Assembly (NCBI RefSeq): GCF_030611305.1 | Contig: NZ_JAUWQB010000002.1 | Span: 1 to 64,000 of the forward strand | Length of the DNA: 64,000 nt | Reading direction: 5' to 3' | Origin: Desulfobacula sp. | GTDB lineage: Bacteria; Desulfobacterota; Desulfobacteria; Desulfobacterales; Desulfobacteraceae | Shown: piece by piece, positions 28,638 through 59,628 of the stretch | Layout of the letters: each line of letters begins with the position of its first letter | Numbering within the stretch: the stretch's first letter is position 1 | The notes under the pieces: generated by a model | Seen by the model: the letters and a program-made list of their open reading frames with translations, nothing else | Database searches by the model: none | Told to the model about the DNA's origin: nothing | Program-made: the position numbers and the translations under genes

Positions 28638-28685
28638 ATTATTCAGGAGGTTTGATTTTGTGGATTAATATTCGTGGAGGAAACC

Positions 28686-29147
28686 ATGAAAACATTTGTT
28701 AAAGATATTATGGTCACTGAATTTGATACAATCCGTTCTGATGAAACTGTTGAAAAAGCCATTCAAATGATTTTAAATGGCAAAATCAGAGAAACAGGTG
28801 ATAAGACCATCAGCCTTATGGTGCTTGATAAAGTGATGATGTTTGTGGGGATAATAACAATGGCTGATATTCTTTATCATCTGCGGCCCGCTTTTTTAAA
28901 TTATGGGATAAGCGGGGAACACGTATCATGGGATGAACAATTTGATATAGCCATGAAAAATCTTAAAGAAAAAGAAGTACGTCAACTTATGAGCATCAAT
29001 ATAGTTGGAGCTTCAGTTGATGAACATCTCATGGTTATACTGGATCGCATGGTAAAAAATAAATACCATAGACTTCCTGTATTAAAGGGTGGGAGGCCTA
29101 TTGGTATTGTATATCTCTCTGATATTTATTTTCATTTTTTTTCATGA
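28686..29147 (+). CDS. CBS-domain pair protein
   Basis: A 153-residue protein made of two CBS motifs: KDIMVTEFDTIRSDETVEKA at the start and VRQLMSINIVGASVDEHLMV in the second half, ending in LPVLKGGRPIGIVYLSDIY. Such pairs bind adenine nucleotides and act as energy sensors. ATG 28686 follows GGAGG, so the in-frame GTG at 28674 is rejected. It precedes the sigma-54 regulator but shares no overlap; a link to that system is possible but unproven. Confidence 0.85.
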   Translation: MKTFVKDIMVTEFDTIRSDETVEKAIQMILNGKIRETGDKTISLMVLDKVMMFVGIITMADILYHLRPAFLNYGISGEHVSWDEQFDIAMKNLKEKEVRQLMSINIVGASVDEHLMVILDRMVKNKYHRLPVLKGGRPIGIVYLSDIYFHFFS

Positions 29148-29366: not shown

Positions 29367-29483
29367 TATGGTAGAATATTTACAGGTGATAAACTTTGTT
29401 TGACAACAAGTATTTAATATTTATATACTTTCTTTAATATTTGTCTTTATTTTCGAATCGTGTCAACAAAGAAGGAGACTTGG

Positions 29484-30836
29484 ATGGAACAAACAAGAAT
29501 TCTGGTGGTTGATGATGAGTTGATTATTCGCGAATCCCTTTCCGGCTGGTTGAGAAGAGACGGGTATCATGTAAGCAGTGTGTCAAGTGGTGAAGAAGCT
29601 ATTGAAACGCTAAAAATTAATAGCTTTGACATACTCTTGCTGGACATTCAGATGGATGGCATCAGTGGAATGGATGTCCTTACGCATGTAAAGGAACACT
29701 ATCCCGATATTGACGTGATTATGATCACGGCTTTCGGCTCCATCCCTTCGGCAGTCCAAGCCATGAAATCCCATGCTTTTGATTATCTTCTTAAGCCGTT
29801 TGATCCGGATGAACTCGGGGTGCTCATCCAGAAATTGATTGATCACAGGGCCAGAATAAAAGAAAACCTGTTTTTAAAGGAAGAGTACGAGCAAAGAACC
29901 CGGTTTGAAAGTATGATCGGTCAGTCCCGGCCCATGCAGGAAATTTTCAACATGATAGAAGATGTCAAGGACACGGATACCACGGTTCTGATCACGGGTG
30001 AGACCGGAACGGGAAAAGGCCTTGCCGCCAAGGCCATTCATTCCAATAGCAGGGTTTCCAACGGCCCGTTTGTCAGTGTGAATTGCGGCTCAATTCCAAA
30101 ACATATCATGGAAAGCGAACTCTTCGGTCATCAGAAAGGGGCCTTTACAGATGCCAAGGAAACCCGGAAAGGCCGCCTGGAAATGGCTAGCGGCGGGACA
30201 TTGTTTCTGGATGAAATCGGTGAGATCAGCATGCGGATGCAGATTGATCTTCTCCAGGTTCTGGAGGATAAAATATTTTACAAGGTTGGGGGTACCCAGC
30301 CCCTTTCAGCCGATTTCAGGGTGATTGCGGCGACCAATGCGAGCCTTGAACAGGCCATTAAAAATCGAACATTTCGGGAAGACCTGTATTACCGCCTGAA
30401 TGTCATTGCTTTTACCATGCCGACTTTACGGGAACGAAAAGAAGACATTCCTTTGCTGGCCGAGCATTTTTTGATGAAGACCACCCAGGAGATCAACAGG
30501 GGGGTGGAAAGAATCAGCAGGGATGCCATGGATGAACTCATGCTGTATGAATGGCCCGGAAATGTAAGGGAGCTTTCCAATGCCATTGAAAGAGCGGTGG
30601 TGGTCTGTAAAACCGGTACCATTACCCCATTGGATCTTCCCATTGTAAAGACGCTGGAAAACGAACTGAAAAAGAAGTATTTCTCACTGACTGATGTGGA
30701 AAAACATCATATTACCAAAATTTTGGATGAAACCAGTTGGAATATTTCCAAGAGTTCCACCATCCTTGGTATTGACAGATCAACCCTGTACAATAAGATC
30801 AAACGATATGGCCTGAAAGACTATCGTGACAAATAG
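29484..30836 (+). CDS. Sigma-54-dependent response regulator (NtrC family)
   Basis: A 450-residue regulator with three domains: receiver (ILVVDDELI; phosphoacceptor in ILLLDIQMDG), AAA+ core (Walker A GETGTGKGLA, GAFTDA loop for sigma-54 contact, Walker B GGTLFLDEIGE) and a Fis-type helix-turn-helix (WNISKSSTILGIDRSTLYNK). ATG 29484 has AAGGAG upstream; GTG 29460 is rejected. It probably activates the -24/-12 promoter at 33279 and partners with the PAS kinase at 33605. It is 21 nt upstream of the archaemetzincin gene. Confidence 0.94.
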   Translation: MEQTRILVVDDELIIRESLSGWLRRDGYHVSSVSSGEEAIETLKINSFDILLLDIQMDGISGMDVLTHVKEHYPDIDVIMITAFGSIPSAVQAMKSHAFDYLLKPFDPDELGVLIQKLIDHRARIKENLFLKEEYEQRTRFESMIGQSRPMQEIFNMIEDVKDTDTTVLITGETGTGKGLAAKAIHSNSRVSNGPFVSVNCGSIPKHIMESELFGHQKGAFTDAKETRKGRLEMASGGTLFLDEIGEISMRMQIDLLQVLEDKIFYKVGGTQPLSADFRVIAATNASLEQAIKNRTFREDLYYRLNVIAFTMPTLRERKEDIPLLAEHFLMKTTQEINRGVERISRDAMDELMLYEWPGNVRELSNAIERAVVVCKTGTITPLDLPIVKTLENELKKKYFSLTDVEKHHITKILDETSWNISKSSTILGIDRSTLYNKIKRYGLKDYRDK

Positions 30837-30857: not shown

Positions 30858-31406
30858 ATGAATAATATTGATACCATTATTGTTTCGCCCATTGGGGATA
30901 TCCCGCTCTGGATGACTGACACCATTGCAACGGATGTAGGGGGGTTTTTCAAGTTCAACGCCAGGGTGGAGAAGGTTTTAGATGATATCTTTTTTGCGTA
31001 TGATGCAGAGCGCAATCAGTATCATTCAACAAAAATCCTTGATAAGCTTGCGAAAAATGCACCCAATGATTGCACCAAGATTATTGCCGTGACCAAGGAA
31101 GACCTTTTCATCCCTATTCTCACCCATGTCTATGGTGAGGCCCAGCTTGGGGGAAAAGCCTGCATCATATCGATTGCCAGGCTGATTGCCGACCTTGAAG
31201 TTGAGATTGTAAACAAGGGGTGCAAAAGGATTGTAAAGGAAGCTATCCATGAACTTGGGCATACGTTTGACCTTCGGCACTGTGAAGATGAAATGTGCAT
31301 TATGCACTATTGCAGAAGGCTTGATGATGTTGACAGGAAATCAAGCCAGTTTTGCCGGTATTGCAACATTTTTTTGGCCGACAACATCAAGGCTCTTTGC
31401 AGATAA
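30858..31406 (+). CDS. Archaemetzincin-family zinc metalloprotease
   Basis: A 182-residue predicted protease. The active site reads HELGHTFDLRHC (H131, E132, H135, H141), followed by C142-x4-C147-x-M149-x16-C166-x2-C169, which is the archaemetzincin signature with its structural zinc cluster. The position normally held by glycine (third residue after H135) is Asp138 here. No signal peptide, so it is cytoplasmic. It sits 21 nt behind the sigma-54 regulator and overlaps the converging GcvH-like gene by 20 nt. The substrate is unknown. Confidence 0.9.
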   Translation: MNNIDTIIVSPIGDIPLWMTDTIATDVGGFFKFNARVEKVLDDIFFAYDAERNQYHSTKILDKLAKNAPNDCTKIIAVTKEDLFIPILTHVYGEAQLGGKACIISIARLIADLEVEIVNKGCKRIVKEAIHELGHTFDLRHCEDEMCIMHYCRRLDDVDRKSSQFCRYCNIFLADNIKALCR

Positions 31407-32304
31407 AGAGCTTTAAGAGCCTGTTCCATGAAATTTTTGGCAGGTTCCCAAAAAGATCGGAGCCCAGCCTTCCACCGTCTGCTGCCGCAAGCTGCGTTTC
31501 TTCTTCTAAAAATGCATACAGCCTGTCTACTTCTCTGTTCATGAACGATTTGTTTGAATCCATAAACATCAATTGTTTCAGGTCTTGTTTCAGATTCGGG
31601 CAATAAAGACTTAATACCCATCCGTCTATATACGGATCATGGTTGATCAGGCCCGGGTTTTGATTCACCTGTGAATTGACTTCGGTGATAACCCCGCTGA
31701 CAGGTGAAAAAAATGATGCCTTATGCCCGTTCCTGGATATATGAATGGCATTTTTTCCCTGGAAAACCTGTTTGCCCATCAGAGGAGTTTTAATGGTGGT
31801 AAATTTCCCCAAAACCCTTGAAGCAAAGTCATCAATGCCGATACGAACAGTGTTGTGGTCTTCTATTTTCACCCATGTATGTCCCGAATGGAGATAATAC
31901 CCTACAGGCAGGGATACTCCACTGATATCATTGAACTCTACAGGTTTTAAGACCGTATATACTTTAAACTGATCATGGAAGTATTGATCAAATTCACAAT
32001 CAATACAATTATAGGTTTTGGGACATGTTTTAAAGTCAATGCGGCCTTTCATATGGTGGATGCACGGCCTTCTCGCCAAGGGCTGTTTTTTAAGCTTTTC
32101 TTTCCAGAAAACAAGATTGTCCTTTTTTCCTTGTAAGATCGCACTTTGTTTTTGATGATGTTCGTTTTCGTGGCAGACTTTTCTTAAAGCCCGGTCAAAT
32201 CTGCAGGTTGTACACAAAAAATCCCTTATACATTTTTTTTGTTTAACCACTCCTGCCTGCATCCAGAGACAGGCAGGAGTTTTTTCTTTTAATCTTGTTT
32301 CCAT
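31387..32304 (-). CDS. Cys-rich GcvH-like protein with putative lipoyl lysine
   Basis: A 305-residue protein. The N-terminal 110 residues carry two cysteine modules of identical spacing, C12-x12-C25-x5-C31-x2-C34 and C81-x12-C94-x5-C100-x2-C103, each followed by [RE]-F-D. Residues about 125-235 resemble glycine cleavage H protein (GYYLHSGHTWVKIEDHNTVR; FFSPVSGVITEVN). Lys195 (in GHKASFFSP) sits where H protein carries its lipoyl lysine. The C-terminus has a conserved ADGGRLGSDLFGNLP block shared with its neighbour. AAGGAGG precedes the ATG. It is second in a two-gene operon with its paralogue. No gcvT or gcvP is nearby, so glycine cleavage is unlikely. Confidence 0.8.
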   Translation of the reverse strand: METRLKEKTPACLWMQAGVVKQKKCIRDFLCTTCRFDRALRKVCHENEHHQKQSAILQGKKDNLVFWKEKLKKQPLARRPCIHHMKGRIDFKTCPKTYNCIDCEFDQYFHDQFKVYTVLKPVEFNDISGVSLPVGYYLHSGHTWVKIEDHNTVRIGIDDFASRVLGKFTTIKTPLMGKQVFQGKNAIHISRNGHKASFFSPVSGVITEVNSQVNQNPGLINHDPYIDGWVLSLYCPNLKQDLKQLMFMDSNKSFMNREVDRLYAFLEEETQLAAADGGRLGSDLFGNLPKISWNRLLKLFICKEP

Positions 32305-32319
32305 TTACAGCCTCCTTTT

Positions 32320-33225
32320 TTAAGTTCTAAGAAAGGTGCGGGTCAGGTTATGCCAGCCAAGCGTCGGCAGATTTCCGTATACATCTGCCTTTAACAGACC
32401 GCCATCTGCGCTCAAAGGGCCTGTTACTTTTTCAATCATGCTTTCAAGGGTGGTCACTTCCTCTCCCAGCCATTCCATGCTGTCGTTGTCGGCCATAAGA
32501 TTTTTTACGGCTCCTTTTATATCGGAGTTGTGAATGGTAAAGAGCCATCCGTCACCATAAGGATGATTTTTTGAAAGATCCGGCGATTTTCTGATATTGT
32601 TGTTGACCTCAGTGATGACCCCGTTCACAGGGGAAAGAATATCGGCCAGGTTTTCTTTTCTTTTCAAGCCCCAGCCTACCTTGTCTTTGTTCAGTTCCTG
32701 GCCGGTCAGGGGCAGGTCAAAGGCGTCCGGGCCACCCAGCACCTTGAAGGAGAAGTCATCAAGCCCGATACGGATAAGGCCGCCGCTGTCGATGCTGGCC
32801 CATGTGTGACCGTCGTGAAAATAATATCCGTCGGCAATATCAAAGCCTTTGACATCTTTCATAACCACCATGGAATGACCGGTTTTCGGGGAAAGGATGT
32901 CTTCAAAATACTGATCAAAATCACACCGCTGACAATTGTAGTTCATGGGGCAGATCTTGTTTTCGGTCCTGTTGGTCAGCGCATGCCTGCAGGTTCTGTC
33001 CGTGCTGTCCCTGTTTCTCAAGGCCTCCTGCCAGGAGATGTGTTTGCCGGCCTTTGCCATTTTGGCCATGGAATCATCGTACTTGCAATTGGTGCAATCA
33101 TAAAAATTATTACAGTTTTTTTTCTTTGCAACGCCTGCCTGCATCCAGATACAGGGATGATCGTTTTTGTCTTTTTGGGCTTTCCAGATGTTTTCGGATT
33201 TTTTGGTTCTCATTAATTGTGTCAT
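32320..33225 (-). CDS. Cys-rich GcvH-like paralogue lacking the lipoyl lysine
   Basis: A 301-residue paralogue of the downstream gene, with the same plan: C25-x12-C38-x5-C44-x2-C47 and C79-x12-C92-x5-C98-x2-C101, then a GcvH-like domain (GYYFHDGHTWASIDSGGLIR; ILSPVNGVITEVNNN) and a shared C-terminal block (ADGGLLKADVYGNLP). At the lipoyl position it has Leu193 (ENLADILSP) where the other copy has Lys195, so it probably cannot be lipoylated. The cysteines suggest zinc or iron-sulfur binding. It follows a sigma-54-type promoter at 33279-33294. Confidence 0.8.
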   Translation of the reverse strand: MTQLMRTKKSENIWKAQKDKNDHPCIWMQAGVAKKKNCNNFYDCTNCKYDDSMAKMAKAGKHISWQEALRNRDSTDRTCRHALTNRTENKICPMNYNCQRCDFDQYFEDILSPKTGHSMVVMKDVKGFDIADGYYFHDGHTWASIDSGGLIRIGLDDFSFKVLGGPDAFDLPLTGQELNKDKVGWGLKRKENLADILSPVNGVITEVNNNIRKSPDLSKNHPYGDGWLFTIHNSDIKGAVKNLMADNDSMEWLGEEVTTLESMIEKVTGPLSADGGLLKADVYGNLPTLGWHNLTRTFLRT

Positions 33226-33278: not shown

Positions 33279-33294
33279 AGCAAAAAGAATACCA
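33279..33294 (-). promoter_or_regulatory. Sigma-54 (-24/-12) promoter of the GcvH-like operon
   Basis: The minus strand reads TGGTATTCTTTTTGCT, with GG and GC at the spacing of the sigma-54 consensus TGGCACG-N4-TTGCW. The -12 GC lies about 55 nt upstream of the first GcvH-like gene. An NtrC-type activator is encoded 2.4 kb away and a kinase gene begins on the other side. Confidence 0.7.
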
Positions 33295-33478
33295 GCCTGA
33301 AAAAAAAGACAAATTTAATATTGATACCCGCGCGAGTTGAGGGATTTGAGATGTGCTGACAAATAAATGCAGCAGATTACCGACATTTTAAATTGTAGAA
33401 TTTTACCACAGCCCATAATGTTCCTTGCGAATCAAGGCGATGAAATCCATTCATCAGCAGGCGTTTTCAATGCCGTTG

Positions 33479-33512
33479 AATTTTCCAACACAGGATTCTA
33501 ATTTTCCAACAC
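33479..33512. repeat. 13-bp direct repeats, candidate activator sites
   Basis: AATTTTCCAACAC occurs exactly at 33479-33491 and 33500-33512, a 21-bp phase equal to two helical turns. They lie about 185-220 bp upstream of the sigma-54 promoter and about 95 bp before the kinase gene. That is a normal distance for enhancer sites of an NtrC-type activator. The rest of 33226-33604 shows no gene. Confidence 0.5.
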
Positions 33513-33604: not shown

Positions 33605-34831
33605 GTGATTGTAAAAATGCCTCAAAAAGAGTTACAAACCATTCTCAGTGGTATTAAAGATTTTGTATTAATCATATCCCCGGAAAGGGAGATCCTGGAA
33701 ACAAATGCGGCTTTTTTAAAACATATGAGATGTTCCAGAGAGGATGTCATCGGCCGAAAATGTTTTGAAGTGCTAAAGGAGGATAAAAGGAAACCCAGCA
33801 ATTGTCACAATATATGCCCCCTTGAAGAAGTTATCAGGAATAAAAGACGTTGCCAGATTGAGCTGACAAGGCTGGACAGTGATAACAAACCCCGGTACAC
33901 GGAGTTGACCATATTCCCCATCTGGGAAAAAAAAGGAAAGATTGCTAAATTCATTGAAATCAGCCGGGATATTACCAAGCGTAAGCTGGACGAAGCCTAT
34001 CTTGTCAAAATAGTGGAGGAAAGAACCCGCCAGTTGAAAGAAACCCATGAAAGGCTTCTTCACCAGGATAAAATGGCCTCTTTGGGCAAATTATCCTCGT
34101 CTGTTGTCCATGAAATCAACAACCCCGTTGCCGGCATATTAAATCTTGTGATACTCAGCAAACGGATATTAAAAGAAGACACTATTGATCAAAAAATGAT
34201 TGATCTTTTTTTACAATACCTGGAACTGATGGAGACTGAAACACGAAGGATCAGCCGTATTGTCAGTAATCTTCTGGTGTTTGCGCGTCAGTCGAAAATT
34301 GAACTGACCAAATTTGATGTCAACGATCTGATTGAACAGACTTTGCTATTAAATTCCAACCTTCTAAAAATAAGCCACATCCGTATCATAGAAGAACTTG
34401 AACATAACCTGCCTTTGATCAGCGGTTCTGAGGATCAGTTAAAGCAGGTGCTGATGAACCTGATTTCCAATGCTGTGGAAAGCATGTCAACCTCCAGGAC
34501 AAAGTACCTGACTATTAAAACCTTTAGTAAAAAAAATCAAAAAGCCATTGGATTGCAGATTAAAGATACCGGGTCTGGTATCCAAAAGGGAACCGAATCA
34601 AAAATTTTTGAACCTTTTTTTACCACAAAGAAAAAAAGCAAAGGTGTGGGGCTGGGCCTTTCTGTGGTATATGGGATTATCCAGGAACACGGTGGGAAGA
34701 TTTATGTGGATTCTGTATCAGGAGAGGGAACCTGTTTTTCAATCACCCTTTACCAGGAGCTGGATCCCCAAAAAATAAAATCAAATCTCCCTTTGTCCAC
34801 GGGCACGCCACCGGATAAATTAACCACCTAA
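33605..34831 (+). CDS. Cytoplasmic PAS sensor histidine kinase
   Basis: A 408-residue kinase without membrane segments. An N-terminal PAS domain (about 10-125) carries several cysteines (C53, C67, C71, C83), a pattern that could hold a metal or redox centre. A short coiled linker leads to the HisKA box with H169 (SSSVVHEINNPVAGILN) and HATPase motifs (ISNAVES, DTGSGI, GVGLGLSVVYGI). It starts at GTG 33605, with ATG 33617 as an alternative. It is the obvious partner of the NtrC-type regulator at 29484, and is divergent from the GcvH-like operon. Confidence 0.9.
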   Translation: MIVKMPQKELQTILSGIKDFVLIISPEREILETNAAFLKHMRCSREDVIGRKCFEVLKEDKRKPSNCHNICPLEEVIRNKRRCQIELTRLDSDNKPRYTELTIFPIWEKKGKIAKFIEISRDITKRKLDEAYLVKIVEERTRQLKETHERLLHQDKMASLGKLSSSVVHEINNPVAGILNLVILSKRILKEDTIDQKMIDLFLQYLELMETETRRISRIVSNLLVFARQSKIELTKFDVNDLIEQTLLLNSNLLKISHIRIIEELEHNLPLISGSEDQLKQVLMNLISNAVESMSTSRTKYLTIKTFSKKNQKAIGLQIKDTGSGIQKGTESKIFEPFFTTKKKSKGVGLGLSVVYGIIQEHGGKIYVDSVSGEGTCFSITLYQELDPQKIKSNLPLSTGTPPDKLTT

Positions 34832-35342: not shown

Positions 35343-35556
35343 CCATTTTTGTAAAGCTCACAAGTTTTATTTCTTAATGAGCAAGACAGCGTCTTTTTAA
35401 TCTTGACTTTTATTCCGGTAAAAAATAACTATTCTAAAATTAACTTATATTTTTTGTTTCAAGGTCGTGGTGGTAGGTATTATCCCGGTCAAAAGCCGGT
35501 TCAAATAATATGGGAACGATGGAAAATGAAATTTTAATAGTATAATGAGAGGATGT

Positions 35557-36609
35557 ATGCGTATTTTTCAAGCTCTGTTGGTTCTGGTCATCATTAATGG
35601 CTCCATGGTTTACGCCCGGGAGCAGCCCCCTGCCAGGGTGGTCATTTCAAAAATTGTTTTTCAAAAGGTGGCCCAGAATCGGTCTTTTATCGGTACGCTT
35701 TATTATGAACGGATCAGTCATGTCTCTTCAGAAGTCTCCGGACTGGTAACCCAAATCGATGTCAAGGCCGGCGATCGGGTTAATAAAGGAACGCCTCTGG
35801 TATATCTGAACACTGAAATACTTGAAAAAGAAATTTTAATTCGCAAAAACCAGATTGATCAGGCTGAACTTTATATAACCCATTCAAAAAAGAATTATGA
35901 ACGAATGGAGTCTTTATATAAAAAAGGCGGGATCAGTGAAAAAGATTATGATGATGCCAGGTTTGTTTATCAAGAGGCCCTTTTAAAAAAAATGTCTGCC
36001 AAAATAATTCTGGAAAAATTGATGATTCAAAAAAGAAAAAGTGTGATTAATGCTCCTTTTGACGGCATTATTCTTGAAAAAAATGTGGATTCAGGAGACT
36101 GGGTCCAGCAGGGGAAACCACTTGCCAGTATCGGGTCCATAAATGACCTTTTTATAAAAGTACCTGTGGCGGAAACTTTGTTGAAGTTTGTTTCCATCGG
36201 TCAAAGCGTACCGGTAACCATCAACGCCTATAACAAAGAAATGACTGGAACCATTGATAATCTGTCTCCGATAGCGGATGCAAAAACCAAAAATGTTTTC
36301 ATAAAAATACGGATTCCCATGTTAACCAAGGTGGCGCAGAACATGTCGGCCACTGTGTTTATTTCCACTGGCAGCAGACAAAAATTGGCCATTATCCCAA
36401 GAGACGCATTAATCAAGTTTCAGGGGAAGGATTTTATTTATACGATAAAAGAAGAAAAGGCGGTTCAGTTGCCGGTAAATATCGTGACCTATCTGGGTAA
36501 CAGGATCGGTGCGGATAATAAGCATTTTACAGAGGGTCTGCCCGTAATAGTTGAAGGGAACGAACGATTGCGCCCTGGTCAGTCCGTTACCATTGTTGGA
36601 GAAGATTAG
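35557..36609 (+). CDS. RND efflux membrane-fusion (adaptor) protein
   Basis: A 350-residue periplasmic adaptor. A signal peptide (MRIFQALLVLVIINGSMVYA) is followed by lipoyl-like halves (GLVTQIDVKAGDRVNKGTPL and DGIILEKNVDSGDWVQQGKP) around a coiled-coil hairpin, and a beta-barrel. ATG 35557 has AGAGGA upstream; ATG 35545 does not. It links the RND pump to an outer-membrane channel that is not encoded here. The pump gene starts directly after its stop codon. Confidence 0.9.
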   Translation: MRIFQALLVLVIINGSMVYAREQPPARVVISKIVFQKVAQNRSFIGTLYYERISHVSSEVSGLVTQIDVKAGDRVNKGTPLVYLNTEILEKEILIRKNQIDQAELYITHSKKNYERMESLYKKGGISEKDYDDARFVYQEALLKKMSAKIILEKLMIQKRKSVINAPFDGIILEKNVDSGDWVQQGKPLASIGSINDLFIKVPVAETLLKFVSIGQSVPVTINAYNKEMTGTIDNLSPIADAKTKNVFIKIRIPMLTKVAQNMSATVFISTGSRQKLAIIPRDALIKFQGKDFIYTIKEEKAVQLPVNIVTYLGNRIGADNKHFTEGLPVIVEGNERLRPGQSVTIVGED

Positions 36610-39600
36610 ATGGATATTATCCGTTTTTTTATCCATAAACCCGTAACTGTGGCAGTGGGCGTCATCCTGACGGTTCTGTTCGGTCTTATCGGGTTTCAAA
36701 AGCTTCCGGTCCAGCTTACGCCTGATGTCGAAACCCCGCTGATTACCGTGAACACGGCCTGGTATGGTGCCACACCCTATGAAATTGAAAAAGAGCTCAT
36801 TGAAAAGCAGGAAAAAGTTTTAAAAGGACTGCAGGGTCTCACCAAAATGGAGAGTTCCAGTTACAACGGCCTGGGTACCATCACTCTGTCCTTTAAAATC
36901 GGAACTAACCTTGATGACGCTTTGCTTAGGGTGTCCAATAAAATGTCCGAGGTGGGCAATTATCCGGAAAACGTAACCCGGCCGACCATAGAGTCTTCCG
37001 GGGCCAATAGTTCTCCCATTATCTGGATGGTCTTAAAGACAATACCAGGCAACACAGAGCCTATCAATCAATTCAAGACTTTTTTTGAAGATAATGTCCG
37101 GCAGCATCTGGAGCGGGTTAACGGAGTTGGCTCTCTCCTTGTATTTGGAGGCACTGATACCACTCTGGATGTGATCATTGATGCCCAGAAAATGGCCCGT
37201 TATAATGTGTCCATCAACCAGATCATTGCATCCATCCGCAGAGCAAATCAGAATATTTCCGCAGGAATTCTGGGCATGGCCAAGAAAAATTATCGCATCC
37301 GGACCATAAGCCAGTTTCAAACCCCGGAGGATGCCCTTGATGTGGTCATTTTTGATGATGGAATAAATCGGGTATACCTTGGAGACGTGGCACAGGTTGA
37401 AAAAGGCTATAAAAAAGAAGATGCCTCAGTACTGCACAGTGGAGAACAGGTGGTTGTGGTTGCAGTGAGAAAGGAAAAGGGAGCCAATGTTCTTAGCATG
37501 ACAGATGCCGTGGAAAAAGCGGTTCATGATTTGAATAAAACCATCCTTGCTGACAACAAGCTGATTTTGAAAATGGTTTATGATCAACGGCCATACATTA
37601 ATACTGCCACCAACCTGGTTAAACGCAATATCCTCATCGGCAGCCTACTGGCCATCTGTGTTCTTCTGCTGTTTTTAAGAAGTGTAAGGACCACATTGAT
37701 CACGGGCATTGCCATTCCCATTTCTGCCATTGGCTGTTTTGTTTTTCTATGGCTGCTGGGAAGGAACCTGAATGTTGTTAGTATGGCAGGGATTTCATTT
37801 GCCGTGGGCATGCTGGTGGATAACTCCATTGTGGTATTGGAAAATATTGACCGGCACCGCAAGACTGGCAAAAGCGCTTTTGATGCTGCCTATGAAGGGA
37901 CAAAAGAGGTGTGGGGGGCAGTCCTTGCTTCCACTGCAACCACTGTGGCTGTTTTTTTGCCGGTCATTTTTATCCAGGAAGAGGCAGGGCAATTGTTCCG
38001 GGATATTGCCATTGCCATTACTTCTTCCATTTTTTTAAGCCTCATTGTTTCCATTTCCGTGATTCCAACCCTGTTTAATCTGTTTTACAGGAAAAAAAAC
38101 AATATCAAAACCGGGTGGCTGCAAAAAAGCGTTGTGGGTTCCCTTCTGGCCGGCGGGATTTTGAAATTAAGCACCCTGTGCATGAAAAATACCCTTACCC
38201 GGCTGGCAACCATTATTTTATTTACAAGTCTTTCCATTGGTTTGACCTTCTATCTTTTGCCAAGTGCCGAATATCTGCCCCAGGGCAACAGAAACCTTAT
38301 TTTAAATATTCTCATTCCACCGCCTGGCTATTCTGTAGAAAAACTCAAAAGCATGGGTAAATATATATACAAAGAAACAGAACCTTATTTCAAAGAAGAT
38401 GGTAAAGATGGGTTCCCCCAGATTAAACATATGTTTTTTGTGGGCGCTGATCGTATCACTCTTTTTGGCGGGATCAGCACCCATGAAACCCGTGCCAAAG
38501 AGCTCATCCCCCTTTTCAGCCGGGTAATGGGCTCAATTCCCGGGGTCTTTGGCGTGAGCATTCAGGCGGGAATTTTCGAGTCTGGTATTGGAAAAGGCAG
38601 AACAGTGGATGTCAATATTTCAGGAAAGGGTATGGATGATATTATCCAGGCAGCATATGCTCTTTTCGGGACCATAACCGCAAAAATGGAAAACACCCAG
38701 GTCCGCCCCGTGCCATCCCTTGAAGCCAGTTATCCTGAAGTAAAAATCATTCCAAATAAGGAAAAACTGGCTGCCAATGGTCTTACAGCCCAAGATTTGG
38801 GTGTATATGTCGATATTCTGATGGATGGCCGTAAAATTGAGGAATATCGTCCCGAGGGAATCAAACAGGTTGACCTGGTACTCAAAGGCCGGCCCTCTTT
38901 TGCCAGCTCGCCGGAAGATATTTTAAACTCCACCATTGTCAACAGCTTTGGAGATCTGATCCGGGTCAGGGATGTGGCAGGGATAGAATATGGAGAGGGC
39001 ATGCCCCAGATAAATCACCTGGAGCGCAGCCGTACCATTACCCTGCAGGTTACCCCGCCTGCCGATCTGGCCCTACAGAGTGCCATGGAGCTGATTGAAA
39101 ATGATATTATCCCTTCTTTGGAAAAGACAGGAAAACTCAAAAATGTCAGGGTGGGTGTGGGCGGCAATGCAGACAAACTTGTGGAGACACGGCAGGCTCT
39201 TCAGTGGAACCTTCTTCTGGCTTTGATCATTACCTATCTTTTGATGGCAGCCTTGTTTGAAAACTTTTTATATCCCTTTATCATTCTTTTCACCGTACCC
39301 CTGGCTGCGGCTGGCGGTTTTGTCGGGCTTTATGCGGTTAACACCTTTATTGCTCCCCAGGGGTTTGATGTCCTGAGCATGCTGGGGTTTATTATTTTAA
39401 TCGGTACAGTGGTAAACAATGCGATTCTTATTGTCCACCAATCATTGAATAATGTCCGTTATAACGGCCTCTTCGGAAAAGAAGCAGTGGCAAATGCTGT
39501 CAAAATCAGAATCAGACCTATTTTCATGAGCGCCACAACCAGCCTTCTGGCCATGCTGCCCATGGTATTGTCTACCGGTTCAGGCAGCGAACTGTATCGT

Positions 39601-39732
39601 GGACTGGGATCGATTCTGCTTGGCGGTATCGCCATGTCAACGGTCTTTACCCTCTTTGTGATCCCTTCCCTGCTCGTTTTTGTCATTGATTCCGAAACAG
39701 ATAAAATCAAGAACTCAGAACAGCTCTCTTGA
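36610..39732 (+). CDS. RND-family efflux transporter, inner-membrane pump
   Basis: A 1040-residue AcrB/MexF-type pump. It has the N-terminal helix and PN1 start (QLTPDVETPLITVNTAWYG), two large periplasmic loops and two blocks of membrane helices. The proton-relay region in helix 4 reads GISFAVGMLVDNSIVVLENI. The second half repeats this with MLGFIILIGTVVNNAILIVH, where one of the usual charged residues is absent as in many RND pumps. It begins immediately after the adaptor stop. Substrate unknown. Confidence 0.93.
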   Translation: MDIIRFFIHKPVTVAVGVILTVLFGLIGFQKLPVQLTPDVETPLITVNTAWYGATPYEIEKELIEKQEKVLKGLQGLTKMESSSYNGLGTITLSFKIGTNLDDALLRVSNKMSEVGNYPENVTRPTIESSGANSSPIIWMVLKTIPGNTEPINQFKTFFEDNVRQHLERVNGVGSLLVFGGTDTTLDVIIDAQKMARYNVSINQIIASIRRANQNISAGILGMAKKNYRIRTISQFQTPEDALDVVIFDDGINRVYLGDVAQVEKGYKKEDASVLHSGEQVVVVAVRKEKGANVLSMTDAVEKAVHDLNKTILADNKLILKMVYDQRPYINTATNLVKRNILIGSLLAICVLLLFLRSVRTTLITGIAIPISAIGCFVFLWLLGRNLNVVSMAGISFAVGMLVDNSIVVLENIDRHRKTGKSAFDAAYEGTKEVWGAVLASTATTVAVFLPVIFIQEEAGQLFRDIAIAITSSIFLSLIVSISVIPTLFNLFYRKKNNIKTGWLQKSVVGSLLAGGILKLSTLCMKNTLTRLATIILFTSLSIGLTFYLLPSAEYLPQGNRNLILNILIPPPGYSVEKLKSMGKYIYKETEPYFKEDGKDGFPQIKHMFFVGADRITLFGGISTHETRAKELIPLFSRVMGSIPGVFGVSIQAGIFESGIGKGRTVDVNISGKGMDDIIQAAYALFGTITAKMENTQVRPVPSLEASYPEVKIIPNKEKLAANGLTAQDLGVYVDILMDGRKIEEYRPEGIKQVDLVLKGRPSFASSPEDILNSTIVNSFGDLIRVRDVAGIEYGEGMPQINHLERSRTITLQVTPPADLALQSAMELIENDIIPSLEKTGKLKNVRVGVGGNADKLVETRQALQWNLLLALIITYLLMAALFENFLYPFIILFTVPLAAAGGFVGLYAVNTFIAPQGFDVLSMLGFIILIGTVVNNAILIVHQSLNNVRYNGLFGKEAVANAVKIRIRPIFMSATTSLLAMLPMVLSTGSGSELYRGLGSILLGGIAMSTVFTLFVIPSLLVFVIDSETDKIKNSEQLS

Positions 39733-41770: not shown

Positions 41771-42757
41771 ATGGATATTATGTTCGTTTTGTTAATTATT
41801 GCAGGAATTATCGGCCTGGCACTGTTTTATTTTATTTTTTCATATATAGCTTTGTGGCTACAGGCATTGGTGTCCGGTGCAAAGGTCGGGCTGCTAAATA
41901 TTATCTTTATGAGGCTTAGAAAGGTTCCGCCAAAGCTGGTTGTTGAATCCAAAATCATGGCCGTCAAAGCTGGTATTGAAATACCCACTGACAGTCTTGA
42001 GTCCCACTTTCTTGCCGGTGGTAATGTCGGTCGTGTTGTCCAGGCACTCATTGCAGCTGACAAAGCCAATATTGAACTTACTTTTAATCGGGCTGTTGCC
42101 ATAGATCTTGCCGGCCGGGATGTGCTTGAGGCCGTCAGGATGTCCGTCAATCCAAAGATTATTGAGACCCCCCTTGTGACAGCCATGGCAAAAGATGGCA
42201 TTCAGCTGAGAGCCATCTCAAGAGTCACTGTTCGGGCCAATATCGACCGCCTTGTAGGTGGGGCTGGAGAAGAAACCATTCTTGCAAGGGTGGGAGAAGG
42301 TATTGTGACCACCATCGGGTCGGCTGTAACCCATAAGGAGGTGCTTGAAAATCCTGATTCGATATCAAAAACAGTTTTGAAAAAAGGCCTGGATGCAGGA
42401 ACTGCCTATGAAATCTTATCCATTGATATTGCAGATGTGGATGTGGGTAAAAATATAGGGGCCGAACTTGAAACTGACCGGGCCGAGGCAGACAAGAAAA
42501 TTGCCCAGGCAAAAGCCGAGGAAAAGCGTGCCATGGCCTTTGCCCAGGAACAGGAGATGAGAGCCCGGGTTCAGGAAATGCGTGCCAAGGTAGTAGAAGC
42601 AGAGGCCCAGGTGCCCCTGGCAATGGCAGAAGCCTTTAGAAGCGGTAATATGGGTATTATGGATTATTACAGGATGCAGAATATTTCCGCAGATACCAAA
42701 ATGAGAGACCAGATTGCAACACCTGAGTCAGACTCAGACCAGGACCCTAAAAAATAA
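41771..42757 (+). CDS. floA: Flotillin-like protein FloA
   Basis: A 328-residue SPFH-superfamily protein. The N-terminal hairpin region (about 1-30) anchors it. The FloA signatures [20 protein letters not shown] and [20 protein letters not shown] follow, and the C-terminus has an EA-rich coiled coil ([20 protein letters not shown]) for oligomerisation. AGGAGATAGGT precedes the ATG. It scaffolds membrane domains; the two NfeD genes upstream support this call. Confidence 0.93.
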
Positions 42758-57663: not shown

Positions 57664-59628
57664 ATCGGGTAGCCGGGGGTTTTAATCCCCCAGCCCCCAC
57701 AACACCCTGCATGCGGGTCCGCACAGGGCGTTTCACCAAGATTACCGGGCCGAGGCCGGGTAATGAATTTTCACCCACTGATCTTTGACAGATATTAACC
57801 CTTGTTCCGATAGCCATTTATTAGTCATACCGACTTGTGTTGCCATGGTTCTGGCAAGATGCCACGGTCCCCTGCGACTAATCGCTGTCATGATGGCTTG
57901 TCTTTTAGAAGTTCCCAGTTTGAGGAGGTTGCGTACTTTGGTCCGGGCATAGCGCCACTGTTTCCAGTAACACATCCGTATCCGGCGGCGGAGCCATTCA
58001 TCTAAACCCGGGATGGGACGATAATACTCCGATATCCCATAATAGTTCATCCAGCCGCGTACGTATTCCGCTAACTTCTTGTAACGGTACCCCATGGAAA
58101 CAAACCAACTCCTCCCGGTAAAGCGACGTAACCGTCGCTTAAATTCCAGGAAGGATTTATCGCTCCACCTGATTTTACCTTTTACAAAGACAAAACCAAG
58201 GAAACCGCACTCCTCCACCGGAGCCACCTTGCTTTTCTTCTCGTTGACTTGGAGCCGCAGCTCCCGTTCGAGGAACCTTCGGATACTCGCCATCACTCGT
58301 GTGCCGGCACTAAGACTTTTCACCATAATGATGAAATCGTCTGCATACCTAACAAAATGGTGGCCGCGTCTTTCCAGTTCCTTATCAAGATCATCGAGAA
58401 GAATATTAGCTAACAATGGAGAAAGTGGGCCACCCTGGGGAACGCCAGTAGGCGTTGCCTGAAGGCAGCCTTTGACCATAACACCAGCCCTGAGATATTT
58501 ACCGATAAGCTTAAGAACCCGCTTATCCTTTATCTGACGGGAGACTCTACTCATCAAGACATCGTGATTAACTTTATCGAAAAATTTCGATAAATCAGTA
58601 TCAACGGCTACAGTGTAGCCCTGCCCTATGAATTGTTTTACCTGCCGGACACCATCATGGGCTGATCTGCCAGGCCTGAAACCGCAACTTGATTCTGAAA
58701 ATAAAGGATCAAATATTAATCCCATGACCTGGGCAATGGCTTGCTGGATCATTCTATCCAGCACTGTTGGAATACCAAGTGGACGTTTACTTCCGTCCGG
58801 TTTCGGTATCTCAACCCTTAGAACAGGAGAAGGGGCATATGTCCCTTCAAAAAGGTTTGAACGTATTTGGGGCCATAACTCGCGAAAGGTGTCTGGAAAT
58901 TGTTCAACGGTTACACCGTCGATTCCAGGGGCACCCTTATTGGCCCGCACCTGTTTCCAGGCACGACGTATATTTTCTGCCGAAAGAATACGCTCCAGTA
59001 GATGACTCTTTGAAAATGGTACTTCCACAGCGCGCCTGTACACTACTCCTCCATTCGGATTCACTGTATATACAAAGCTCATGGATACCTCCTTTTCGTT
59101 TGATGTTCGGTCCTTCACCCTGTCCGGGGCATTACCCCCGGCATTTGGCTACTATGACGTCTGCTGACTTCTGCCCTATCACCCTTCAGGTTACCCTGAC
59201 AGGCGCAATGAAACTTCTTTTGCATGTGCTGCCCATTGTTCGTGTTTCACCACCGTCGGCAACAGCCGGTGATGCCTGGACCTTGGCGACCCGGTATGGT
59301 CCAAGCCGGGATTTATTGCAAAAGATGCTCAATGCATGCAAGGCAGATCTCCCCGGATAAGAACGTGAACTTTCACTACACAACCGCAGCATTTACCCTG
59401 TCTCCTGAATCCTGGGCTTTGTCATGTTGTGCTGACTTACCCGGAGACCAGGCCTTATATGCTGTTTCTGTTCGTCGGCTCATAGTTTTGCACTCCAACT
59501 TCCTTCGGACGGTCCCTCGCGGTTCCGCCCTTGTTTTCGGCTAATACTTGTGTTAACAAAACACATGTTAACAGGACTCACGTATAGGGGACTTTCACCC
59601 CATAAGTTCACGCCCGTGCCGGGCGTAC
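57664..59628 (-). mobile_element. Group II intron with its maturase
   Basis: About 1.96 kb. The likely 5' end on the minus strand is GTACGCCC (59621-59628), a variant of the GUGYG start, followed by a structured region of about 540 nt (GGGTGAAAGTCCCC, GGACCGTCCGAAGG). After the maturase comes a domain V-like hairpin at 57702-57731 (CGCCCTGTGCGG / CGCATGCAGGGTG) and a domain VI-like stem at 57668-57698, ending in CTACCCGAT at 57664. The DNA is clearly more GC-rich than its surroundings, which points to recent transfer. Both boundaries are estimated by eye. Confidence 0.8.
57742..59082 (-). CDS. Group II intron reverse transcriptase/maturase
   Basis: A 446-residue LtrA-like protein. Reverse transcriptase blocks are clear: RRPLGIP-type fingers (KRPLGIPTVLDRMIQQAIAQ), SSCGFRPGRSAHD, TGVPQGGPLSPLLANILLDD and the active site RYADDFI. 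A maturase X domain follows (RYKKLAEYVRGWMNYYGISE). No HNH endonuclease domain is visible at the C-terminus, so mobility would use nicks at replication forks or hairpin targets. ATG 59082 follows AAGGAGG. It looks intact. Confidence 0.93.
   Translation of the reverse strand: MSFVYTVNPNGGVVYRRAVEVPFSKSHLLERILSAENIRRAWKQVRANKGAPGIDGVTVEQFPDTFRELWPQIRSNLFEGTYAPSPVLRVEIPKPDGSKRPLGIPTVLDRMIQQAIAQVMGLIFDPLFSESSCGFRPGRSAHDGVRQVKQFIGQGYTVAVDTDLSKFFDKVNHDVLMSRVSRQIKDKRVLKLIGKYLRAGVMVKGCLQATPTGVPQGGPLSPLLANILLDDLDKELERRGHHFVRYADDFIIMVKSLSAGTRVMASIRRFLERELRLQVNEKKSKVAPVEECGFLGFVFVKGKIRWSDKSFLEFKRRLRRFTGRSWFVSMGYRYKKLAEYVRGWMNYYGISEYYRPIPGLDEWLRRRIRMCYWKQWRYARTKVRNLLKLGTSKRQAIMTAISRRGPWHLARTMATQVGMTNKWLSEQGLISVKDQWVKIHYPASAR

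Follow-up and report, generated by a model that had tools for sequence, protein, structure and literature searches.

The Gene Pair and Its Four-Cysteine Modules

This locus, from a bacterium related to Desulfobacula, raises the question of why two adjacent genes should encode proteins that combine a domain of the glycine cleavage H-protein (GcvH) type with tandem four-cysteine modules, and what such proteins might do. Both genes lie on the reverse strand of the 64,000-nucleotide stretch of DNA that was analyzed (the window). P0002 (P2-type, 32320..33225, 301 amino acids) is the first gene of the pair; P0001 (P1-type, 31387..32304, 305 amino acids) lies 15 bases downstream and has the same architecture, that is, two four-cysteine modules, a degenerate GcvH-fold domain, and a C-terminal block. 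Our best explanation, held tentatively and at slightly less than an even chance, is that the two genes encode a metal- or Fe-S-binding adaptor or electron-transfer pair, induced by a two-component system and built on a degenerate H-protein scaffold.

Fifty related loci were obtained from one scan of genome contigs with a single-protein query, which reached close relatives; they are named as Desulfobacula, Desulfotignum, Desulfobacteraceae, Desulfobacterales, or broader groups. P1-type and P2-type genes occur together in 49 of the 50, the exception (L052) being a locus that starts within P1 at a contig edge. The orthologue set comprises 49 P1-type and 45 P2-type open reading frames (ORFs) of at least 270 amino acids, the window included and shorter or broken ORFs left out. 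In a tree of 72 proteins the P1-type and P2-type sequences form two groups of 17, so P1 and P2 are likely to be paralogues from one duplication; support is 1.0 for the P2 clade and for P1 plus P2, and only 0.32 for the P1 node when the tree is rooted at its midpoint. The conserved C-terminal block claimed in the original prediction is real, with D276, G277, and G278 invariant in all 94 orthologues and P289 and F300 nearly invariant. No export signal is evident in P0001 or P0002 when the sequences are read by eye. A mobile origin of the pair was considered and rejected: of the 13 plasmid records found by tblastn of P0001, not one spans 80% of the query, and in the eight listed the similarity is confined to the GcvH part of the protein, or to a portion of that part.

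Each protein contains two C-x12-C-x5-C-x2-C modules, and every module continues C-x-[FY]-D. Calculated by hand from residue numbers, the modules of P0002 occupy 33076..33153 (C25-D50) and 32914..32991 (C79-D104) and those of P0001 occupy 32194..32271 (C12-D37) and 31987..32064 (C81-D106), all on the reverse strand. None of the 94 orthologues departs from Cys at any of the eight module positions or from the 12-5-2 spacing; the original prediction of an invariantly spaced cysteine unit in both ORFs is borne out, in its coordinates and its cysteines alike, and orthologues have not lost the spacing. The inter-module linker is 46 residues long in 48 of 49 P1-type proteins and 31 residues long in all 45 P2-type proteins. 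A wider set of 81 proteins, collected by a module HMM and hence biased to the motif, holds 141 modules: 133 are exactly 12-5-2, three are 13-5-2, three are partial or degenerate, and two, both within receiver-domain fusions, are 12-5-3.

No named four-cysteine, zinc-ribbon, or Fe-S domain in Pfam or NCBIfam matches significantly over the modules; the best match (E 0.012) is of zf-CHY to one of 37 module segments, and the others are weaker. PHROGs offers phrog_30325, a family of unknown function, over 18 residues of P0001 (E 0.0028, 18.6 bits). PDB sequences give no significant match to the modules (best E 0.18). Foldseek returns one match of the module region to PDB folds (E 3.3), a missing match not being proof of a new fold, and with VIA-align neither of two chains reaches Z 2. 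That the module fits no named motif, as had been suspected, therefore holds in the libraries searched, where it is not an already defined domain either; these comparisons support its description as an apparently undescribed unit that matches no named domain in Pfam, NCBIfam, or PDB. An AlphaFold model of the P0002 double-module fragment is of middling confidence (pLDDT 77.1, pTM 0.67), and both modules in it show a short helix, a strand-like turn, and a longer helix past the last cysteine, in that order. Structure prediction, which had been proposed as a check, thus yields a clear GcvH fold in P0001 (below) but a module fold without a significant match. Judged from sequence, the modules are most likely putative sites for a metal ion or an Fe-S cluster.

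A Degenerate H-Protein Fold

The GcvH-like domain of the original prediction is likewise real. It lies at 32467..32823 in P0002 and at 31540..31890 in P0001 (reverse strand), and Pfam GCV_H (PF01597) matches the pair at 2.7e-23 and 3.4e-17. The H-protein fold is clear in the AlphaFold model of P0001 (pLDDT 82.7), and the ten best solved H-proteins found by Foldseek have TM-scores on target of 0.83-0.91. The hairpin alignment of P0001 and P0002 with solved H-proteins is ungapped, and columns 193-201 are without gaps in 94 of 94 orthologues. The place of the lipoyl lysine is taken by Glu191, preceded by Lys190, in P0002 and by Gly193 in P0001; only 4 of 49 P1-type proteins, and 0 of 45 P2-type, have Lys in this column. 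Arginine stands two residues earlier in 47 of 49 P1-type and 42 of 45 P2-type proteins. Lysine one residue before the lipoyl column is found in 36 of 45 P2-type and 0 of 49 P1-type proteins, and the P1-type proteins have no lysine in common within columns 191-195. Across the wider family, lysine occupies the lipoyl place in 7 of 77 proteins with module and H domain and in 2 of 20 with the H domain only, and lies one residue past it in 19 of 77 and 9 of 20, respectively.

The reading of the pair as lipoyl carriers is not supported by these counts, and as the main reading it was rejected on the lipoyl column, the neighboring lysine of the P2-type proteins being kept as a reservation; because 36 of the 45 carry it, lipoylation of P2 is unlikely rather than impossible. 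P0001 and P0002 appear instead to be built on a degenerate H-protein scaffold, with the lipoyl lysine gone from its place. The true GcvH of this genome has its lysine in place and is encoded on another contig (C113), directly before GcvP, and the one match to GDC-P in the genome is on that contig, adjoining it. The earlier statement that the pair occurs without any glycine cleavage genes thus holds for the immediate surroundings inspected but not for the genome.

Kinase, Regulator, and Archaemetzincin

Three neighboring genes on the forward strand complete the locus. Divergent from the pair is a histidine kinase (HK; 33605..34831) with a PAS domain bearing a Cys motif, HisKA, and HATPase; profile matches identify a sigma54-dependent response regulator (RR; 29460..30836) with REC, AAA+, and Fis-type HTH domains. 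The third gene, convergent with the pair, encodes an archaemetzincin (AMZ, Peptidase M54; 30858..31406) with the motif HExxHxxxxxH; the 3' ends of this gene and of P0001 share 20 bases. Among the 50 loci, RR lies beside the pair in 38 (at least 50% identity), AMZ in 39 (at least 45%), and HK in 37 (at least 50%). One or another of the three is not found in 11-13 of the 50, several of these loci lying at contig ends; the set is also missing from L044 and L053 in spite of their long flanks, so the linkage is not obligatory. A CBS gene (28674-29147) was also considered as a member and rejected, a similar gene being present in 1 of 50 loci.

The HK cluster was formed by single linkage and may include unrelated kinases; 21 of its 44 members match the PAS Cys-motif pattern, and 12 show a glycine motif of Rossmann-like type close to their start, which makes a redox or nucleotide signal for the putative sensor plausible. 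The archaemetzincin motif HExxHxxxxxH is kept in all 85 AMZ ORFs (the window gene counted three times), 55 of which have the metzincin glycine replaced by D, N, S, or K. An NCBIfam model of non-proteolytic archaemetzincin-like proteins matches the window AMZ below its cut-off. Of the 297 genomes from the phylum, 110 have an archaemetzincin gene: 56 of the 63 with the module versus 54 of the other 234, a difference whose p-value cannot be taken at face value since the genomes are related.

Promoter and Upstream Sites

A sigma54-type -24/-12 promoter (TGGTAT-N5-TTGCT) is located at 33279..33294 on the reverse strand, and the P0002 start codon follows 54 bases downstream. Taken alone, the match in the window is not beyond chance (0.48 expected per 64 kb). 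Scores of at least 14 out of 15 within 350 bases upstream are found for 39 of 43 P2-type genes and 1 of 48 P1-type genes; upstream of neighboring genes the figure is 3 of 378, and upstream of RR (49 genes), AMZ (43), and HK (43) it is zero. Of the module genes in the wider set, operon second genes included, 39 of 79 reach a score of 14.

A candidate palindromic enhancer (UAS), a pattern match with two mismatches to TGTTGGAAAATCCAACA, lies at 33474..33490, and a second, weaker candidate, TGTGGTAAAATTCTACA, at 33394..33410, about 80 bases nearer the promoter, where many orthologues have their UAS (neither is assigned a strand). The window holds two TGTTGGAAAATCCAACA-like matches with at most three mismatches, against 0.72 expected, and many loci have such a palindrome upstream of the -24 element, at a distance of about 117 or 196 bases. 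Of 37 P2-type regions with a promoter score of at least 14, 34 contain a UAS-like palindrome at a shuffle p of 0.05 or less, by a consensus taken partly from the regions under test and with shuffles that keep only base composition. The promoter and the candidate UAS upstream of P2 are conserved among orthologues.

This genome contains 38 UAS-like sites with at most three mismatches, compared with 10 for the reversed pattern. Three of the 27 sites examined have a sigma54-like score of at least 14 within 350 bases: that of this operon, one at L163 (18 bases apart), and one at L167 (87 bases apart); L195, near L167, has only an RR-like match. A second clear pairing of UAS and sigma54 site was not found among these 27 of 38 sites. 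From conservation and position, we infer that the neighboring RR binds the candidate UAS, and the HK and RR encoded beside the pair probably switch it on together.

Contexts and Fusions in the Wider Family

The module HMM search that had been suggested with the original prediction finds matches in 63 of 297 genomes of the phylum, a few of them weak (E above 1e-3). From the module genomes, 68 stretches, part of all matches, were inspected. By similarity clustering RR is present in 48 of these loci, AMZ in 43, and HK in 41; 30 loci have the three together. Some contigs belong to both locus sets (L044 and L125, for example, agree in gene sizes and in the length of the contig), so the counts from the 50 and the 68 loci are not independent. 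HdrA-like genes occur in 17 of the 68, HmcB-like in 9, HdrB in 7, HmcC/NrfD-like in 6, and HdrC in 4, the HdrA, HmcB, and HmcC examples scoring below the curated NCBIfam cut-offs; 28 loci have at least one Hdr or Hmc gene, and 40 have none in reach. No such gene was seen beside the pair among the part of the window's ORFs that was covered.

Domain fusions add to this picture. In L116 and L120 the module stands between [2Fe-2S]/[4Fe-4S] ferredoxin domains and the degenerate H-protein (pseudo-H) domain, beside Nuo51-type NADH subunits; L116 also has the module pair alone, in a 189-amino-acid ORF ahead of genes of the NADH-dehydrogenase type. A pseudo-H domain in L098 is fused to a large Fer4/FAD protein, read as HdrA-type, and L100 and L112 encode receiver-module-module proteins. 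To judge by the surroundings of relatives, a part in Hdr-, Hmc-, or NADH-linked complexes, as adaptor or in electron transfer, is favored. Signaling, rather than electron transfer, is what the receiver fusions suggest; with the gene pair of this locus, which stands alone, they leave room for a role in signaling or metal buffering. The suggestion of a "redox or sensing device" is compatible with the adjoining two-component system and with the Hdr, Hmc, and Fe-S contexts of relatives, which do not show it.

Among 31 genomes that have archaemetzincin and lack the module, 10 have a GCV_H ORF of about 230-320 amino acids that shares a contig with AMZ and lies no more than about 10 kb from it. In all seven module-negative loci fetched, the pseudo-H protein nearest to AMZ has one or two copies of another Cys motif (CPFL...FC...C...C) at its N terminus, and HK and RR are near. 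What is constant therefore seems to be a Cys unit, a pseudo-H domain, HK, RR, and AMZ, and within this set the Cys unit would be exchangeable.

Proposed Role and Alternatives

In the mechanism that we propose, the HK would sense a redox or metabolic state and phosphorylate the sigma54 activator RR, which would bind the palindromic UAS and fire the -24/-12 promoter upstream of P2; locally, the pair would be what this two-component system chiefly drives. P2 and P1 would be co-transcribed, and their paralogous products probably act together, perhaps as a heteromer. The Cys4 modules would hold a metal ion or an Fe-S cluster, and the H-protein fold, its lipoyl lysine lost, would now be a docking scaffold. 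P1 and P2 might then serve Hdr- or Hmc-type flavin/Fe-S complexes as subunits for docking partners or transferring electrons; genes of such complexes would be unlinked in this genome, whereas relatives have them in the same operon or as fusions. Having an intact zinc protease motif, the archaemetzincin may turn over or mature P1 and P2. A broader version, which we regard as possible but rather doubtful, is an undescribed redox module found throughout the phylum, in which an H-protein scaffold has swapped its lipoyl arm for tandem metal- or Fe-S-binding Cys4 units of more than one type (C-x12-C-x5-C-x2-C and CPFLE-type) and which is delivered when needed by a dedicated sigma54 two-component system, kept in check by archaemetzincin, and connected to Hdr-, Hmc-, or NADH-linked complexes.

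The same circuit could serve a metal or redox buffer. ZraSR-ZraP consists of a two-component system with a sigma54 activator and a neighboring sigma54-controlled metal-binding product, and the layout here is alike in outline, with a divergent or neighboring sigma54-controlled Cys-rich product; a pair of this kind would, once induced, bind metal or react with a stressor and damp the kinase, with no role in an enzyme complex. AtoC and ZraR are among the NCBIfam neighbors of the RR, and the receiver-module-module proteins and the lack of a second clear UAS-sigma54 pair among the 27 genomic sites count on the same side. Such a buffer would leave unexplained the conserved H-protein fold and C-terminal block, as well as the occurrence, in relatives, of Hdr/Hmc operons and fusions to Fe-S domains, and the pair has no evident export signal; we consider it unlikely, if still worth keeping in view. 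A lipoyl carrier whose lysine has been displaced by one residue would account for the fold and for the lysine of the preceding column in most P2-type proteins. Relatives adjoining HmcB- or HmcC-like genes often have a lysine one residue later, and Hdr-linked LbpA proteins are lipoylated relatives of GcvH (PMC6067878). The scarcity of lysine at the lipoyl column, in the orthologues and in the wider family, speaks against it, as do the ungapped columns 193-201 and the P1-type proteins, with no shared lysine near the site, and we regard this alternative as very improbable.

The archaemetzincin might, alternatively, be the effector of a protease-controlled stress device, with the Cys4 modules as zinc-dependent folding switches and P1 and P2 as its substrates or regulators. 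Its gene adjoins the pair in 39 of 50 loci and 43 of 68 wider loci, the catalytic motif is universal among the ORFs compared, and it adjoins a pseudo-H protein even where the Cys module is of the other type (all seven fetched loci). Proteolysis is nevertheless a prediction from a motif, the metzincin glycine is replaced in most of the ORFs, and a model of non-proteolytic relatives matches the window protein, if below its cut-off, so that this device seems distinctly unlikely to us. The adaptor or electron-transfer pair accordingly stays our preferred, if tentative, reading.

Comparison with Known Systems

P0001 and P0002 share with GcvH (PF01597) the fold and most conserved core residues; they differ from it in having no lysine at the lipoyl place, in their extra Cys modules and C-terminal block, and in having no P, T, or L partners beside them, GcvP adjoining the true GcvH elsewhere. 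Their scores (82.7/73.2 and 62.9/64.1 bits) fall below the NCBIfam GcvH cut-offs of 117/115.85. An identity with GcvH or LbpA was rejected on the lipoyl column, and that with GcvH also on these scores. In circuit the pair may be likened to a ZraP-type product and in context to LbpA; unlike ZraP, it is unrelated in fold and presumably cytoplasmic, and an archaemetzincin is added.

LbpA, of the Hdr-like sulfur-oxidation pathway, is likewise a GcvH relative, and its description reports a strictly conserved lysine (95 of 95) together with one N-terminal and one C-terminal cysteine (PMC6067878); in P0001 and P0002 the corresponding place is not lysine and Cys4 modules are present. Hdr linkage is seen here in relatives (HdrA in 17 of 68 loci) and not beside the window pair in the ORFs covered. 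LarG of Pelobacter carbinolicus is described as GcvH-like and lipoylated, and its authors propose an electron carrier beside a membrane complex (PMC3543383); the likeness to our pair comes from that description rather than from sequence comparison, and the lipoylation sets LarG apart.

Full-text searches of open-licence papers found no description of this gene set. Databases label such proteins as glycine cleavage H-protein through their sole known domain, a label that would be wrong in function. If the proposed role is correct, anaerobes of this phylum would have regulated adaptor or carrier proteins for energy-conserving complexes, undescribed in the papers searched; there would be a new Cys4 domain and a bacterial role for archaemetzincin, and a cofactor-carrier fold would have been retained after loss of its cofactor site. 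A further GcvH-like fold match, at Foldseek rank 22, is GcvH-L of Streptococcus pyogenes (PDB 5a35), which has no Cys modules and is of ordinary length (112 residues in the structure).

Pseudo-H Proteins and Associated Kinases in Related Loci

Pseudo-H proteins, which have the GcvH fold and mostly lack a lysine at the lipoyl place, also occur in membrane-anchored form without Cys modules in eight stretches from relatives in the same phylum (L104, L107, L108, L118, L119, L121, L122, and L123). HmcB/HmcC-like genes (of an Hmc-type electron-transfer complex) adjoin these proteins, several of which carry a lysine at the lipoyl place +1 residue. Histidine kinases from six of the stretches (L104, L107, L108, L119, L121, and L122) contain CxxCH-type motifs flanked by two hydrophobic stretches; they are possibly periplasmic heme sensors.

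Another group of kinases (L089, L095, L101, L129, and others) has an N-terminal Rossmann-like GGG motif ahead of the PAS domain; this part may be a dinucleotide sensor. In the one such kinase scanned (L129), it matched no Pfam family.

At the archaemetzincin loci of genomes without a match to the C-x12-C-x5-C-x2-C module (L188–L194), the pseudo-H proteins bear an N-terminal tandem Cys motif (CPFLE...FCKAFPVKKMIP...C...C) distinct from the window-type module. Genes for archaemetzincin, a histidine kinase, and a response regulator adjoin them; HmcB/NrfD-like genes are also present in several of these loci.

Other Genes in the Window

Of two forward-strand ORFs (35545–39732), one appears from its sequence to encode an efflux membrane-fusion protein and the other an RND pump. 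The window also encodes a flotillin-like FloA (41771–42757, forward strand) and a group II intron reverse transcriptase/maturase (57742–59118, reverse strand; RVT_1 and GIIM domains).
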